DNA of 29,572 nucleotides, from IMG/VR virus record IMGVR_UViG_3300009164_000252, positions 1 to 29,572 of that record; one strand, 5' to 3'. The notes under the pieces are model-generated. The model had not been told where the DNA came from. It was given only the letters and a program-made list of their open reading frames with translations, and searched no databases. Positions 2,485-18,806 of this stretch are shown here, piece after piece (within the stretch, counting starts at the first letter, position 1; each line of letters opens with the position of its first letter). The stretch is from a virus. Position numbers and translations under genes: made by a program.

Positions 2485-2581
2485 GAACATCAAGGCTGAG
2501 ATTAAGGCTGGCAAACCGCCCAAGCAAGCGGTAGCTATTGCCTACTCGGTTAAGCGCGAAGCAGAGAAGAAGAAAAAGTGA
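2444..2581 (+). CDS. 45-residue lysine-rich protein
   Basis: A short gene in its own frame between the coiled-coil gene and small terminase. It begins MPLKKSPTPKAL, has a helix-like middle (ENIKAEIKAGKPPKQAVAI) and ends in a Lys-rich tail. A good ribosome site (GGAG, 7 bases before ATG) supports it, and its TGA overlaps the GTG start of small terminase (GTGA). Very short KPPKQAVAIAYS-type proteins are recurrent in phages and some bacterial genomes, without known function. The basic character suggests nucleic-acid contact, but that is inference. Confidence 0.7.
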   Translation: MPLKKSPTPKALSENIKAEIKAGKPPKQAVAIAYSVKREAEKKKK

Positions 2582-2979
2582 CCGAAGCTAAACACCCTGG
2601 TGGCCGCCCCACGCTCTACAGAGAGGAATACTGCGAGCGCGTAGTAGAGTTGGGTAGAGTTGGCAAGTCTATTGAACAGATAGCAGCCGACATAGGGGTT
2701 TCTACTAGGGTCTTATTCGATTGGCGTGATAAGCACGAGAAGTTTCTGCACGCCTTGGAATATGCAAAAGAATTAGAGCAGACATGGTGGGAAGACCAAG
2801 CGCAGGCTTACATGGTGGAAACGCACCAAGGGCCGAAGCTGAACGCCTCATTGTGGTCACGCTCAATGGCTGCACGTTTCCCTAAGAAGTACCGCGAGAG
2901 TGTCAAACAAGAGATTACAGGCGCAGATGGCGCACCTTTACTAACCGGCATTGAAGTTAGCTTTGTCAAGCCAAGTTAA
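2578..2979 (+). CDS. Terminase small subunit
   Basis: 133 residues. It recognises phage DNA and delivers it to the large subunit for packaging. Seen: GGRPTLY at 8-14, then a helix-turn-helix (about residues 20-52, ERVVELGRVGKSIEQIA...GVSTRVLFDW) as in terminase small subunits, then helices with LWSRSMAARFPKKYRES near 92-108, a motif common in this group, and a short C-terminal tail. Start is the GTG at 2578, coupled to the preceding stop. It overlaps the large subunit by 29 bases. Call rests on the HTH and on position before the large terminase. Confidence 0.88.
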   Translation: MTEAKHPGGRPTLYREEYCERVVELGRVGKSIEQIAADIGVSTRVLFDWRDKHEKFLHALEYAKELEQTWWEDQAQAYMVETHQGPKLNASLWSRSMAARFPKKYRESVKQEITGADGAPLLTGIEVSFVKPS

Positions 2980-4246
2980 AGACGCAGTAGCCAAGGCGCA
3001 GTTTCCGGTCAAGCTGGAGTGTCTGTTTCAGCCTGAGAAAAGCCGTTACCGAATTCTGTACGGTGGCCGCGGTGGGGCTAAGTCGTGGGGCGTTGCCCGA
3101 GCATTGCTCATAAAGGGCGCACAACGCAGTTTGCGTATCCTTTGCGCCCGTGAGTTTCAGACCTCCATCAAGGATTCCGTCCACAAGCTGTTGTGCGACC
3201 AAATCATTGACCTGGGGCTAGAGGGCTTTTACGAAATCACCCAGGCCAGCATTCGGGGCAAGAACGGGACTGAGTTTGCGTTTGTCGGCCTAAAGAACAA
3301 TGTGGCAAACGTAAAAAGTTACGAGGGGGTCGACCTGTGTTGGGTGGAGGAGGCACAAACGACCAGCCGATTAAGCTGGAACATCTTAATTCCAACCATC
3401 CGTAAGGAAGGCAGCGAGATATGGGTCACGTTTAATCCTGAGTTGGAGACGGATGAAACCTATCAGCGGTTTGTGCTGCATCCACCTGAGAACGCCGTTG
3501 TCCAAAAAATCAACTGGTCGGACAACCCTTGGTTCCCTGAGACGCTCTTATTGGAAAAAGACGCGCTCAAGATGCGCGACATCGAGGCGTATAACACCGT
3601 ATGGGAAGGAATATGCCGCCAGACTGTGGATGGGGCTATCTTTGCCCGCGAGATGCAGATGGCCGAGTTGGAAGGACGCATCACCAAGGTTGGATATGAC
3701 CCAATGAAGCCGGTTCACGCCGTATTTGACTTGGGATGGTCGGATGCAACCGCAATATGGTTTGTGCAGTTTATTGGCATGGAGACTCGGCTAATCCGCT
3801 ACCATGAGGACAATCAAAAGACCATATCCGATTACCTAGCCAAGATGCAGACCTACGGCTACGTTTACGATACCCTGTGGTTGCCGCACGACGCTGAGAA
3901 TCGGACGCTAGCCGCCGCCGGTCGGTCAATCGACCAAATCGTTCGGTCTGCGGGATATAAGACCAAAATCATTCCGCGAACGCCGATTGTGGATAGTATT
4001 AACGCCTCGCGTACCTTATTCCGTAATTGCTGGTTTGACAGGGATAATTGCTACGATGGGTTACAATGTTTGCGGCATTACCGCTACGAGGTTGACCCCG
4101 ACACTAAAGCGTTCAGCAAAAACCCGCTGCATGACCAGTTTTCGCATGGCGCGGACGCATTCCGTATGCTTGGGCTGGTGGTAAACGAGCCGCGCAAACG
4201 AGTGTCTAAGCCAACTTACGTTCAACCACAGAATTGGATGGGCTAA
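2951..4246 (+). CDS. Terminase large subunit
   Basis: 431 residues, ATPase-nuclease motor that packages DNA through the portal. Seen: Walker A YGGRGGAKS at about 38-46, an RILCAREFQTSIKDSV segment, Walker B DLCWVEEAQT near 128-137, a coupling motif (WVTFNPE), and an RNase H-like nuclease domain with D260 (VFDLGW), D314 (LPHDAEN) and D402 (SHGADAF). The layout matches PBSX/P22-type large terminases. The start is probably the TTG at 2951, inside the small-subunit gene; no ATG lies before the ATPase motif. Length is normal for the family, and nothing is missing from the catalytic set. Confidence 0.93.
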   Translation: MKLALSSQVKDAVAKAQFPVKLECLFQPEKSRYRILYGGRGGAKSWGVARALLIKGAQRSLRILCAREFQTSIKDSVHKLLCDQIIDLGLEGFYEITQASIRGKNGTEFAFVGLKNNVANVKSYEGVDLCWVEEAQTTSRLSWNILIPTIRKEGSEIWVTFNPELETDETYQRFVLHPPENAVVQKINWSDNPWFPETLLLEKDALKMRDIEAYNTVWEGICRQTVDGAIFAREMQMAELEGRITKVGYDPMKPVHAVFDLGWSDATAIWFVQFIGMETRLIRYHEDNQKTISDYLAKMQTYGYVYDTLWLPHDAENRTLAAAGRSIDQIVRSAGYKTKIIPRTPIVDSINASRTLFRNCWFDRDNCYDGLQCLRHYRYEVDPDTKAFSKNPLHDQFSHGADAFRMLGLVVNEPRKRVSKPTYVQPQNWMG

Positions 4247-6328
4247 ATGGACGAATCAATTATTGACGAAGCAAAGGATTTTCTAAAACTTTGCAACGAC
4301 GCGGACACAATGAACCGCCAAGAAGCCCTAGAAGACCTTAAATTCGTCTCGGGCGGCGACCAATGGCCGGTAGACCTACAAAACTCCCGCAATCTTGAAT
4401 CTCGCCCTGTCCTGACCATTAACAAGCTGGACGGATATTGCCGCCAGGTGACCAACCAGCAACGTCAACAACGTCCACGCATCAAGGTTCACCCGACAAA
4501 CACCCAAGCAGACGTTAAAACCGCCCAAATCATTGAAGGAATCTGCCGCCACATTGAGATTAACTCCAATGCGGACAATGCTTACGACACCGCTTTTGAC
4601 CACGCCGTGCGGATGGGATGGGGCTTTTGGCGCATTACAACTGATTATGTAAAGCAAGACAGCTTTGACCAAGAAATCTTCATTGAGGCCATTCAAAACC
4701 CATTCACCGTCTACTTTGACCCTAATTCCGAAGCTGTAAATGGGTCGGACGCTGACCGCTGTCTCATCACCACCATGATGAGCAAAGCCAAATTCCGCGA
4801 GTTGTACCCCAATTCTGATGATGGCAGCAGCTTTACCCAGCGCGGCACGGGTGACAGCCAATCCGAATGGATTACCAAAGAGGACATTCGCATTGCGGAG
4901 TATTTCTATACCGTGCGCGAACCCGCCAAGCTGGTCAAACTGTCCGATGGCACGCAAGGATTCATGGATAAAGACATGAAGGCGCGCATGGCCTTATCCG
5001 GTTTGAGCGTGATTGACGAGCGTGATTCATACAAAAAAGTAATAAAGTGGAAAAAGCTAACTGCCATTGAGGTCATTGAAGAACGCGATTGGCCTGGCTC
5101 TTACATTCCCGTTGTGCCCGTTTACGGGCGGCACATTGTCATTGGCGACAAGCGCAAGAAGTTCGGCATGGTGCGCCACGCTAAAGACGCGCAGCGGATG
5201 TATAACTTCTGGCAGACCACCATTACGGAAAGCGTCGCGCTGGCTCCAAAAGCCAAATGGATAATGGCAGAAGGCCAAGACGAGGGCCACGAAACCGAAT
5301 GGGCAGCGGCCAACATTAAGTCGTTCCCATTGTTGCGTTATAAGCAAACCGACATTGACGGGCAACCCGCGCCGCCGCCGCAGCGCCTCCAGCCTGAGCC
5401 GCCTCCGACCGGCGTTATGGCCGCCGCACAAGGGATAAACCAAGACATTGCCACGCTAATGGGTATTTTTGACCCAAGCCAGCAATTGCCTGGGAACATC
5501 TCGGGTAAGGCGTTGAACGGCCAACAACAGCAAGTTGACCTAACAAACTTTGACTTTTACGACAATTTGACCAAATCCATCGCGCAGACCGGCACGATTA
5601 TTCTTGACCTTATCCCTAAGATTTACGACTCGCAGCGGGTAATGCGAATCATTGGAGATGATGGCAAGCCCGACTTGGTGAACATTAACGAACCCAAGCA
5701 GGACGCGCAAGGCGTTTACACCATCATGCACGACATGACTGTGGGCGAATATGACGTGGTTATGGATACCGGTCCAGGCTACAACAGCAAGCGCCAAGAA
5801 GCCGTGGATGCAATGGTCAATATGCTCAAAGTTGACCCCGCGCTTATGCAACAAGCCGGTGACCTTATTTTCCGCAATATGGACTTTCCTGGCGCAGACA
5901 TCATTGCCGACCGCCTTGCCGCCGCTAACCCAATGGCGCAAATTGACGATAAATCACCCGTGCCGCCCCAAGTTCAGATGCAACTCAAGGCGAATCAGGC
6001 GCAAATGCAGAAGATGCAGCAGGCTATCCAGCAAATGCAGCAAATGATTAAAACCCGCCAAGATGTGGAGCAAGTTAAGCAGGACGCTGAAACCAAACGT
6101 TTGCTTATCAAAGAAACTAACCGCGCCCATGAGATGGAATTGCAAGATGCCCAGCGCCGTTACGACACGGATACGCGGACAAGCACCACAGCGCACGATA
6201 CGGTTATTAAGACGCAAACCCAATTGGAAATTGAGCGCATGAAAGCTGAAGTTGCCCTAATGTTGGCAAATTTGGATAAAGCCTCGGCTCATGCGGCATC
6301 TTTGGAAACTACTGAACGTGCAATATAA
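4247..6328 (+). CDS. P22-like portal protein
   Basis: 693 residues, close to the 725 of P22 gp1. It forms the dodecameric portal through which DNA is packaged and ejected. Seen: an N-terminal helical region with FVSGGDQWP near 33-41 and RPVLTINKLDGYCRQVTNQQRQQRPRI (about 53-79), diagnostic of P22-type portals, then DHAVRMGWGFWRI near 118-130, and NPFTVYFDP. The C-terminal 120 residues (from about 572) are Gln/Met-rich helices matching the long barrel of the P22 portal. The ATG follows the large-terminase stop directly (TAAATG), with GGATGGG upstream. Confidence 0.93.
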   Translation: MDESIIDEAKDFLKLCNDADTMNRQEALEDLKFVSGGDQWPVDLQNSRNLESRPVLTINKLDGYCRQVTNQQRQQRPRIKVHPTNTQADVKTAQIIEGICRHIEINSNADNAYDTAFDHAVRMGWGFWRITTDYVKQDSFDQEIFIEAIQNPFTVYFDPNSEAVNGSDADRCLITTMMSKAKFRELYPNSDDGSSFTQRGTGDSQSEWITKEDIRIAEYFYTVREPAKLVKLSDGTQGFMDKDMKARMALSGLSVIDERDSYKKVIKWKKLTAIEVIEERDWPGSYIPVVPVYGRHIVIGDKRKKFGMVRHAKDAQRMYNFWQTTITESVALAPKAKWIMAEGQDEGHETEWAAANIKSFPLLRYKQTDIDGQPAPPPQRLQPEPPPTGVMAAAQGINQDIATLMGIFDPSQQLPGNISGKALNGQQQQVDLTNFDFYDNLTKSIAQTGTIILDLIPKIYDSQRVMRIIGDDGKPDLVNINEPKQDAQGVYTIMHDMTVGEYDVVMDTGPGYNSKRQEAVDAMVNMLKVDPALMQQAGDLIFRNMDFPGADIIADRLAAANPMAQIDDKSPVPPQVQMQLKANQAQMQKMQQAIQQMQQMIKTRQDVEQVKQDAETKRLLIKETNRAHEMELQDAQRRYDTDTRTSTTAHDTVIKTQTQLEIERMKAEVALMLANLDKASAHAASLETTERAI

Positions 6329-15223: not shown

Positions 15224-15523
15224 ATGACTACTTTTACTTGGACAATCACGCAAACTGATTATTTGGTAGCTGATGGCTTTATCACCACTGCGCACTGGAC
15301 AGCCATTGCCGTTGACGATACATACACTGCCAGCGTTTACGGCACTTGCGGCTTTGCTACTGCTACGTTATCCATCCCTTACGACCAAGTGACTATGCAA
15401 GAAGTGCTGAATTGGTGTTGGGCAAATGGCGTGGACAAGGACGCTATTGAAGCCAATCTTGCCGCAAAAATTTCCGCATTAAAAAATCCTGTAAGCGCCG
15501 TTGGCGTACCTTGGAGCGCATAA
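15224..15523 (+). CDS. Small phage protein, first of a paralogous pair
   Basis: 99 residues: MTTFTWTITQTDYL, DGFITTAHWTA, a two-stranded middle, a helical part (QVTMQEVLNWCWANGVDKDAIEANLAAKI) and an end V.VPWSA. The next gene has the same plan, with [32 protein letters not shown] and VVPPW. The family is found in aquatic phages near tail genes; function unknown. No strong ribosome site is visible. Confidence 0.65.
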   Translation: MTTFTWTITQTDYLVADGFITTAHWTAIAVDDTYTASVYGTCGFATATLSIPYDQVTMQEVLNWCWANGVDKDAIEANLAAKISALKNPVSAVGVPWSA

Positions 15524-15841
15524 ATGGCAAATTTCACATGGAAAATTTCTGAGATTTCCGCTACCGACGGGCTGATTACTCATGCGAAATACCATGTGAC
15601 AGCCCAAGTTGACAACGATTCCGTTGAGACTGAAGGCAATTGGTACTTCAATGAGCCAACCCTAAAAACGCAATTTGCCGATGTGACTGAGGATATGGTT
15701 GCTAGTTGGATTGAGGCCGAGTCTTACAAAGACGGAATAAATGTTATAAAATCGGGGCTAGAGGAACAACTGGCGCGTAAGTCGAATTCTGTTGTGCCTC
15801 CGTGGAAACCGCAAGTGTTTACCCTGGAGCAAACTGAATGA
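15524..15841 (+). CDS. Small phage protein, second of a paralogous pair
   Basis: 105 residues, matching the previous protein in order: FTWKI start, [18 protein letters not shown], beta middle, helix [14 protein letters not shown]...LEEQLA, and VVPPW near the end. It begins directly after the preceding TAA. GGAG lies 12 bases upstream. More acidic than its paralogue, and it lacks the Cys/Trp pair seen there. Its stop overlaps the gp4-like start (ATGA), which links the pair to the connector genes. Function unknown. Confidence 0.68.
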
Positions 15842-16809
15842 CGGCACCCATCGACATTATTTCACGCGCACTTAAAGACATTGGCGCTTTAGAAGCCGGT
15901 GAAACTCCTACGCCCGAAGCGGCGCAGGATGCGTTTGAAATGCTCAATGACCTTATTGACCAATGGTCGAATGAGGACATGATGACTTTCTACAAAACAG
16001 AAATCATCTTTCCCGTTACGTCAGGCCAAACGCAATACACCATCGGCCCAGGCGGTCAAATTGGCGCAGTTTTTACAGGTTCTATATCAGGGACAACCCT
16101 GACAGTCACGGCCATTACATCAGGCGCTATCGCCATAGGGCAAACCTTAAGCGGCACAGGAATCACGGCTGGCACAAAGATTTTGGCATTTCAAACCGGC
16201 GCGGGTGGCAACGTCAATGAAGCCGGTACATACACGCTTAACATTTCGCAAGCAGTAGCGGCCACCACAATCAACGCCTACTATCAGCGGCCTTTGGTTA
16301 TTAATTCGGCATTTGTTCGGATTAACACCACATCTAACGGCCAACCAATAACCGGCGGTGGCCTTGATTATCCGGTTTCGGTGCTGAACGTTGAAGAATA
16401 CGAAATGATTGGTCTGAAGACGCTTAACGGCCCGTGGCCTAAAGCGCTTTACTACCAACCGACTGAACTGTTAGGAAACCTTTTCCTGTGGCCCAATCCA
16501 GGCCAAGGCGAAATGCACATTTTTGCCGACACAATTTTCAGCAATTACACTGGCCTGTACGACAACATTACGCTTCCGCAAGGCTATGCAATGGCGCTGC
16601 GCTGGTGTCTCGCAGAGCGTCTTATGCCAATGTACGGCAAGGCAAGTCAGACCCAAATCGCAATGATTATGAAGTTTGCCGCCCAAGGCAAAGCCACAAT
16701 TAAGCGCACAAACATGAAGCCGCCGCCGGTTGCTCGGTATGCTGATGCGTTGTTGGTTGGTCGCAGTAAAGACGCTGGCTGGATTCTTAGTGGCGGTTTT
16801 TTCCGTTGA
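15838..16809 (+). CDS. P22 gp4-like tail accessory factor with inserted module
   Basis: 323 residues. P22 gp4 (166 residues) extends the portal and closes the head. Seen: [39 protein letters not shown] at 4-42, typical of the gp4-like family, then MMTF and [17 protein letters not shown] Thr/Gly-rich module follows at residues 79-147, after which the family sequence resumes with YYQRPLVI...RIN and GWP-like segments ([21 protein letters not shown]) and a helical C-terminus. The module interrupts the domain and is also found twice in the next protein. Start fixed by the ATGA overlap. Confidence 0.85.
16072..16278 (+). repeat. Inserted ~69-residue module in the gp4-like gene
   Basis: Encodes [18 protein letters not shown], then [16 protein letters not shown], a Gly-rich turn and GTYTLNISQ. 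The same pattern occurs at 17214 and 17427 in the next gene. Confidence 0.8.
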
Positions 16810-16817
16810 GGCCATAA

Positions 16818-18806
16818 ATGCCCGATTTTGGTTTTGTCGGCCCATCCTACGAAGCACCGTCGATTTATCAGGAATCGCAGGAGTGCATCAATTTCTTTCC
16901 CGAGATTGACCCACTCAAGCAGCCTGGCACGCGGGGCATTGTTGCGCTTTATCCAACCCCAGGGTTAACTTTACAGGCCGTATTGAATACTGCCGAAGTG
17001 CGCGGTCTCCGCACATTGTCGGGCGGTTCGCAAATGATTGCGGTCTGCGGCGTTTACGTTTACGTCTTTACGTCTAGCCTAACCCCGACCATTGTCGGCA
17101 CGCTCAATTCGTCCACGGGGCGCGTTGGGATTACCGACAACGGCATCAACGCTTATATCGTAGACGGGGCTTATCGGTACACATGGCGCATTTCCACCCC
17201 ATCTAACGCCATCTTTACCGGCTCTGTCTCGGGCACGACTTTGACCGTTACGGCCATGAGTTCGGGCACGATTACAGCTAACCAAAGTCTTACTGGTATT
17301 GGCGTGACCGCAGAAACCGTTATAACGGCTTTGGGGACGGGAACTGGCGGTGTTGGTACTTATACGCTCAATACATCGCAAACAGTTTCCGCACGTTCTT
17401 TAAGCAGCACGGCAGTCGGCGCTCGGTTTACGGCCACAGTCGCAGGCACAACAATGACTGTCAGCGCAGTCGCCTCGGGCACGATTTATCTTGGGCAAAC
17501 CATCCAAGGTGCAGGCGTTACGGCGGGCACAATTGTTACCGCATTTGGTAGTGGCTCGGGTGGCGTCGGCACTTACACTATCAGCAATTCGCTAACGATT
17601 GCCGTTGGACAGACCATGTATGCGCTGAACTTTAGCGTTTTGCCATCTAGTGATGGAGCGTTTAGCGGCGCGAATTCCGTTGATATTGTGGACAACTATT
17701 TTGTCTACAACGACCCAGGCACTCAGCTTTGGGGCGCATCTAATCTGTTGTCTCCCATCTCGCCAAGCACTTCTTATTCGCTAAAAGACGGAGCGCCCGA
17801 CAAGCTAGTAGCGCTTATTGTTGACCACCGCGAAGTTTATTTGATGGGCGAAGCATCGTCCGAAGTGTGGACAGATGTAGGCGCGGTTCAGTTTCCATTC
17901 CAGCGCATTCCAGGCACATCTACCCAACAAGGCATTGCAGCGCAATTTTCTGTTGCCCGCCTTGGTCAATCGTTTGCCTATGTGTCGCGCAACAATCGAG
18001 GTCAAGCGCAAGTAATGCAGATGAATGGGTACATTCCACAGCGAATTTCCACTCACGCCGTAGAGAATTCGCTGACCAATCAATACATTGATGACGCAAT
18101 TGCTTGGACGTATCAGCTTGAAGGCCATGAAGTCTATGTTTGCACATTTCCGACCATTGGGCTAACTTGGGCTTATGACTTCACCACGCAAATGTGGCAC
18201 AAGTGGCTTTACACAAATACGGATGGCACATACAGCCGCCATCGCGGGAACTGCTGTGCAGTCTTTCAAGGCATGGTGTTAGTCGGCGATTACGACAATG
18301 GTTGTATATACAAACTTGACAAACTTAACTACACCGACAACGGCCAAAATGTCCGTCGGTTGCGCCGCGCTCCCCACCTGACCACAGACCTACAGCGCCA
18401 GTATTTTGAAGAATTGCAGATTCAATTCCAGCCAGGCGTAGGTACGACAGGGCTTTCCATGCCTTTCAACACAAACATTTATGTGGGTTCGCCTTATTAC
18501 ATTTATTCTGCCGCAACTTTTACCATTGGGGCATTAGAAACTTACGTTCTTGGAACTCAAAGCACAATCAACAACACCACGACCACAACTTATCCACAGG
18601 CTATGTTGCGTTGGTCTAATGATGGCGGCTCCACTTGGTCTAAAGAATATTGGGTCACCATTGGACAACTAGGCAAGTACCGCAACCGCGCTATTTGGCG
18701 GCGACTTGGACAAGCGCGGGATAGGGTTTTTGAAGTGTCTATTACAGACCCTGTGAATGCGGTCATCATCTCTGCCAATCTAAAAATGAGCGCAGGAGAA
18801 AACTAA
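16818..18806 (+). CDS. P22 gp10-like packaged-DNA stabilisation protein with two inserted modules
   Basis: 662 residues; P22 gp10 has 472. It binds below gp4 and seals the packaged head. Seen: N-terminus [29 protein letters not shown], characteristic of the family, then YPTPGL, RGL.TL, and later [32 protein letters not shown] near 320-355, [33 protein letters not shown]. Two copies of the beta-rich module (residues 133-200 and 204-269) interrupt the N-terminal half and account for most of the extra length. AGG lies before the ATG. Family call firm. Confidence 0.88.
17214..17624 (+). repeat. Tandem pair of the connector module in the gp10-like gene
   Basis: Copy one starts at 17214 ([18 protein letters not shown]), copy two at 17427 ([18 protein letters not shown]). 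Both continue with GQ-type residues, G.G.TA, a TG or GSG.GGVGTYT turn and a strand. The second is homologous to the first and to the copy in the gp4-like gene. Confidence 0.82.

Follow-up and report, generated by a model that had tools for sequence, protein, structure and literature searches.

A short beta module, here called M1, interrupts two neck proteins of an uncultivated virus, once in the gp4-like head-tail adaptor and twice in the gp10-like head closure protein, and is probably a reusable part of the outer virion surface, not a component essential to either host protein. The window (i.e. the whole stretch of DNA that was analysed) is a record of 29,572 bases from an uncultivated freshwater virus of bacteria and contains a P22-type head module. 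Our preferred reading, to which we assign a probability of about 0.6, is that M1 is an accessory, outward-facing domain of the virion surface that entered the adaptor first and gp10 later, as a pair, where it came to serve as a platform for nested insertions. In short-tailed phages, adaptor and closure proteins usually count as a conserved core. What is unusual here is the presence of a promiscuous virion domain in two of these core neck proteins, together with nested insertion.

Host proteins and the three copies of M1

Genes in the window follow the order terminase, portal (phrog_156), scaffold, coat (phrog_283), fibre-like genes, two DUF7936 genes, adaptor, and head closure. The two DUF7936 genes stand in tandem (15224-15523 and 15524-15841), directly 5′ of the adaptor gene. 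The features considered below are:

15838..16809, + strand: gp4-like head-tail adaptor, 323 aa (PF24175, phrog_12985, Foldseek)
16066..16284, + strand: M1 copy a, adaptor residues 77-149, in the fibre-dock region; predicted to be all-beta
16285..16809, + strand: adaptor sequence resuming after copy a (RPLVINSAF... to the C-terminus)
16818..18806, + strand: gp10-like head closure Hc3 / packaged-DNA stabilisation protein, 662 aa (phrog_578, profile, Foldseek)
17208..17417, + strand: M1 copy b, gp10 residues 131-200; first of the tandem pair
17421..17627, + strand: M1 copy c, gp10 residues 202-270; second of the pair, hosting nested M2 or M3 in relatives
18438..18596, + strand: second variable stretch of gp10, approximately residues 541-593; low-confidence model

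The adaptor matched phrog_12985 (E = 4.9e-40) and, slightly above the cut-off, the SU10_adaptor family PF24175 (28 bits, cut-off 27; residues 143-280). Its AF2 model, in which helices at residues 4-14, 26-45, and 248-291 flank a beta region at 50-233, retrieved podovirus adaptors in Foldseek (best match 9k09_d, E = 3.7e-7). Both features of an SU10-type adaptor were thus found, namely the PF24175 match and helical ends enclosing a beta-rich dock region. A Foldseek match of the same model to 8eci_1 of Arthrobacter phage Bridgette (94 columns, 24% identity, E = 0.033) may correspond to the module but was discarded as too weak.

For gp10, the match to phrog_578 spanned the full length (E = 4.7e-96), and a profile of aligned gp10 homologues matched the gp10 chains of Pan3, Pam1, Sf6, and P22 (E = 4.5e-45 to 1.6e-22). 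Although the N- and C-terminal parts of its AF2 model were poor, Foldseek retrieved P22 gp10 (8u10_1, E = 5.9e-16) as well as the proteins of Sf6, Pan3, and Pam1. Its gene follows that of the adaptor within a P22-type head module, which is the position of a head closure protein Hc3. The second variable stretch (residues 541-593) is unrelated to M1 and was common only to the window and MW202520 in an alignment of ten gp10 proteins.

M1 is about 66 residues long (66-73 aa). A search of the single genome with copy a as query matched exactly three places (E = 9.5e-40, 3.7e-15, and 3.7e-12), and the copies share 58% (a-b), 46% (a-c), and 52% (b-c) protein identity; they are thus homologous, and the original prediction of one copy in the gp4-like protein and two tandem copies in the gp10-like protein was borne out. 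Their alignment scores lay 12.7-15.7 SD above those of 1000 composition-preserving shuffles, so that the similarity exceeds what composition alone would produce, a doubt that had been raised along with the prediction. Four additional residues (NVNE) in the glycine loop of copy a are common to gp4 copies and absent from the other copies.

Homologues with an empty site identify the copies as insertions. Positions 6-227 of phrog_12985 align to adaptor residues 6-308, which leaves about 75 extra residues in the adaptor. When ten adaptors were aligned, six of the nine homologues ran straight from YTIGP.G to RP without M1; the module was found in the window, MW202520, and MW202674, and a diverged related stretch in Xanthomonas phage PBR31. 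In the ten-protein gp10 alignment, both inserts occurred only in the window and were absent from all nine homologues. The nearest gp10 proteins in phage records, which are 61-64% identical, also lack the two copies. The empty gp10 site is a 27-residue segment (AYIVDG..RYTW...TNTF..LP..DG), and the insert maps to approximately residue 123 of P22 gp10. The phrog_12985 alignment and the insert-free homologues of both proteins agree with the claim of the original prediction that the host domains resume after each copy.

Predicted fold and probable outward placement

AF2 models were computed from alignments of the window and its IMG/VR relatives. The two gp10 modules were modelled with pLDDT values of about 87-95, and copy a mostly with 86-95, falling to 68 in the glycine loop. 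Six strands were listed per module, i.e. two hairpins and two short strands. According to these models, M1 is probably a compact all-beta domain with its termini close together, and a module with adjacent termini would fit into the turn of a surface beta-hairpin and leave the host undisturbed. The Ig-like fold, a Greek-key beta sandwich, has about seven strands. Ig-like Pfam families did not match any of 15 M1 copies at E values up to 1, no family covering M1 was found in Pfam or NCBIfam, and a sequence search of the PDB with M1 profiles returned chance matches only and no sequence relative.

The alignment of P22 gp4 to the adaptor profile was confined to the helical ends, which places copy a in a part of the protein that P22 is without. 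In SU10, this part was described as the docking domain for the long tail fibres, which P22 and Sf6 do not have (PMC9509320). By strand order in the model, the gp10 insert was read as lying in the outer hairpin of the second propeller blade. In the SU10 nozzle, blades 1-3 of the propeller are located away from the channel, and blades 2 and 3 are separated by four inserted Ig-like domains (PMC9509320). Taken together, the position of copy a in the fibre-dock region and that of the gp10 insert in the blade-2 hairpin make it likely that the three M1 inserts face outward, as judged from homology and modelled strand order. With the ring stoichiometry taken from SU10, the copies would sit on the fibre-dock part of a 12-subunit adaptor ring and on the outer propeller-blade edge of a 6-subunit gp10 ring. 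As an accessory surface domain, M1 could help to hold tail fibres or spikes through additional contacts, or could touch the cell envelope weakly.

History of the insertions and nested modules

Scans of IMG/VR yielded hundreds of relatives, and 259 loci with distinct gp10 sequences were analysed; the scan frequencies (at least 80 loci and at least 600 pattern matches) describe these sampled relatives and not the environment. Neither insert was present in seven loci, only the gp4 insert in 21, and both in 231, and gp10 modules without a gp4 module did not occur in any of the 259. All 252 near relatives have retained the gp4 copy, and each of the 231 loci in the clade that acquired the gp10 pair still has it. 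A phylogeny of the gp10 core, from which the insert was left out, shows a single gain of the two-module state (support 99) and no loss of the pair. In the module tree, the gp4 copies were united in a single clade (SH-aLRT 95), and the gp10 copies sorted largely by position, first or second (seven label changes compared with 103 after shuffling). Trees and locus counts together indicate that the adaptor gained M1 first and gp10 the pair later, followed by inheritance of each copy in place. An adaptor with two M1 copies was found in 21 loci; such tandem copies (L380, L366, L381, L356, and others; ORFs of 398 aa) were observed in loci whose gp10 carries M3.

The insertion of M1 is therefore old, and each position has evolved vertically. 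The DNA identity among the three copies of the window is only about 60-68%, so they are no recent duplicates, and a recent duplication within the genome was rejected as the source of the copies in one virion, since copies group by position in the module tree. Recent spread, for which a DNA comparison of the copies had been proposed, was accordingly not supported. In close pairs, omega was 0.03-0.17 for the modules and 0.02-0.07 for the cores, which shows that the modules are kept by purifying selection; each site has evolved under such selection since its insertion. Among first gp10 copies, 92% have a glutamate (E) at one site; among second copies, 80% have a tyrosine (Y) at another. These position-specific conserved residues suggest local contacts, although they could also reflect purely internal packing.

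The most striking feature of the relatives, missed by the original prediction from the window alone, is the nesting of further modules within their gp10 copies. Lengths of the gp10 segment enclosed by the host motifs on either side are quantal, i.e. 25-34 residues (empty), 159-169 (two M1 copies), 247-256, 305, 342-343, and 431, and the longer forms mostly contain other modules within the second M1. These are M2, located in the first hairpin of the second M1, and M3, located in its glycine loop; both are unrelated to M1, and one or the other is carried by about 95 of the 259 sampled loci. The gp10 pair is thus shown to be a platform on which M2 and M3 were inserted at two fixed loops. Changes on the gp10 core tree numbered two for M3 and four for M2. 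A comparison of L021 with L158 revealed a clean in-frame insertion of 264 nt with no obvious target duplication, and in L059 an M1-like unit was found inside an extra M1. Representatives with M2 or M3 in gp10 are L016, L020, L021, L057, L066, L080, L093, L195, L206, L207, L210, L213, L218, L219, L225, L229, and L239, two of which (L066 and L218) contain multiple M2 modules.

Free-standing genes for homing endonucleases of the HNH or GIY-YIG type lie between adaptor and gp10 in 33 of the 259 sampled relatives; the window has none. Examples are the HNH genes L182:6025-6627, L177:3834-4415, and L002:7035-7610, as well as a GIY-YIG-like gene with NUMOD3 (L049:5757-6389). In phages, nucleases mark the boundaries of exchange (PMC10448857). 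M1 probably spread by rare in-frame recombination between phages, which these endonucleases next to gp10 may promote here, and this is a plausible route. However, the HNH gene of L002 is present beside a gp10 without modules, so that a link between endonucleases and modules is not established.

M1 in other virion proteins, alternative readings, and known systems

M1 was also found inside the tail sheath (PF11863), neck terminator (PF23961), tail tube (PF18906), and capsid (PF05065) proteins of unrelated phages, as well as in baseplate wedge, minor head, phrog_3287 virion, and fibre proteins. In the tail tube, for instance, residues 7-351 map to profile positions 4-263, with M1 at 97-162. Several virions resemble the window virus in carrying M1 in more than one protein. 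Among 150 genomes drawn from the Cupriavidus family, four contained M1, one of them in three genes resembling phage structural genes. In myovirus-like genomes, M1 was observed in adjacent neck terminator and sheath genes (L315:1735-2457 and 2497-4437; also L289 and L278), so that its presence in several proteins recurs in an unrelated tail type. Terminator and sheath copies of one myovirus genome share 46-58% protein identity, and the terminator copies of L315, L289, and G021 share 57-66% with one another, i.e. they are at least as alike across genomes as terminator and sheath copies are within a genome. Proteins of the phrog_3287 type carry either single modules or arrays of 12-14 M2 (the latter, e.g. 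L435, L487, L436, L419, and L448, being phrog_3287-like proteins of approximately 1140-1355 aa); no homology was found between gp10 and the M1- or M2-bearing phrog_3287 proteins. M1-like repeats were further noted in large, apparently secreted proteins on bacterial MAG contigs (L329:1034-4006 and L330:2-5791), which are not phage structural proteins. Within PHROGs, M1 appears only as part of fibre and unknown families. Copy a gave six matches in a tblastn search of phage records; copy b and the copy from L266 gave none, which does not imply absence, since the low-complexity filter probably masks these queries. The interpretation given with the original prediction is thus supported in part: its description of the module as a mobile decoration domain is fair over evolutionary time, given the many unrelated hosts, but not in the sense of recent spread.

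It is possible, and we propose it tentatively, that the blade-2 hairpin is a docking port and that, with the M1 pair as a platform for M2, M3, and modules inside these, gp10 grows outward by nested insertion. The product would be an arm that can be extended, resembling a nozzle or an adhesin and evolved independently of SU10. A rival explanation, which we consider unlikely, takes M1 as structural tail arms, with the gp10 copies forming a short nozzle or collar, similar to the Ig-like nozzle domains of SU10, that wraps the tail and rearranges on infection, and with nesting lengthening the arm. The insertion near the nozzle-domain site of SU10 (PMC9509320), the quantal lengthening of the gp10 insert from 0 to about 400 residues, the conserved residues specific to each gp10 copy, and the single modules or M2 arrays of phrog_3287-type proteins all fit a nozzle arm. 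Nevertheless, two 66-residue modules are small compared with four Ig-like domains, sequence homology to the SU10 nozzle is lacking, and a nozzle role would make no sense for the M1 copies in capsid, tube, and sheath proteins. These many unrelated hosts, together with nested insertions, the 33 of 259 loci that have homing endonuclease genes, and the association of nucleases with exchange boundaries (PMC10448857), would also be expected of a tolerated passenger that inserts readily owing to its adjacent ends, spreads by recombination and homing endonucleases, and has no function for the phage. Such a passenger is an improbable explanation, as omega is well below 1 and neither the gp4 copy nor the gp10 pair was lost in any of the respective 252 and 231 loci.

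We regard pairing between the gp4 and gp10 copies across the neck interface, which the original prediction had offered as an option, as very improbable. While gp10 modules never occur without a gp4 module, the 21 loci with a gp4 module alone, including the near relatives MW202520 and MW202674, argue against obligatory pairing, and the copies in the two proteins have come to differ in their position-specific residues. Finally, in-frame insertion into conserved structural genes and endonuclease genes nearby in some relatives might suggest that M1 is an intein in disguise, an intron, or some other element that removes itself. Inteins possess a Hint domain with splicing residues and typically exceed 130 aa. 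M1, with 66-73 aa, is too short and gave no match to Hint or intein families in Pfam; moreover, its sites are variable hairpin turns instead of catalytic motifs, it is conserved at the protein level with low omega, and it is predicted to fold as a domain within its host. An intein- or intron-type reading is already inconsistent with these data and hardly credible.

In this freshwater lineage, hundreds of sampled relatives document the addition of an uncatalogued module to both adaptor and gp10, and extant members still show the order of the nested gp10 steps. With 0, 1, 3, 4 or more modules, they form a series, ordered by phylogeny, that offers a way to ask how accessory domains enter essential rings without disrupting them and what purpose they serve. 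The analysis also provides three domain profiles (M1, M2, and M3) that are absent from Pfam and recur in many phage structural proteins now called hypothetical.

Among known systems, the P22 gp10, Pam1 needle-head, and Pan3 stabilisation proteins are homologous to the gp10 of the window over the full length, but none of them has M1. The adaptor shares with the fibre-dock domain of SU10/T7-type phages (PMC9509320) a beta-rich region that P22 lacks and within which the gp4 copy lies; M1 itself is a further insertion inside the dock, absent from most homologues. Similarly, the nozzle protein gp17 of SU10 (PMC9509320) has domains inserted into a closure/nozzle beta-propeller, close to blade 2 and pointing away from the channel, whereas the gp10 pair consists of a different, shorter domain and, by strand count, would lie within the blade-2 hairpin and not between blades. 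SU10 gp11 and gp17 gave no sequence match to the adaptor and gp10 alignments, so that the comparison with SU10 is one of structural analogy. A parallel in distribution is that of the Ig-like phage domains (Fraser et al. 2006; phage sheath survey PMC9230969), which are likewise small beta domains, accessory, exchanged, and present in many unrelated surface proteins, and for which weak binding to cell-surface carbohydrates has been proposed (cited in PMC9230969). M1 shows the same promiscuous presence in unrelated virion surface proteins, but by sequence it is not a member of this group, as it matches neither Ig-like nor other Pfam families. It comprises about 66 residues with six predicted strands and, unlike Ig-like domains, is a landing site for further modules. 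Ongoing domain exchange in phage proteins, including neck passage proteins, has been described by Smug et al. 2023 (PMC10684548); while their neck example concerns exchange of a C-terminal domain, the insertions reported here are internal and nested and affect the core adaptor and closure proteins.
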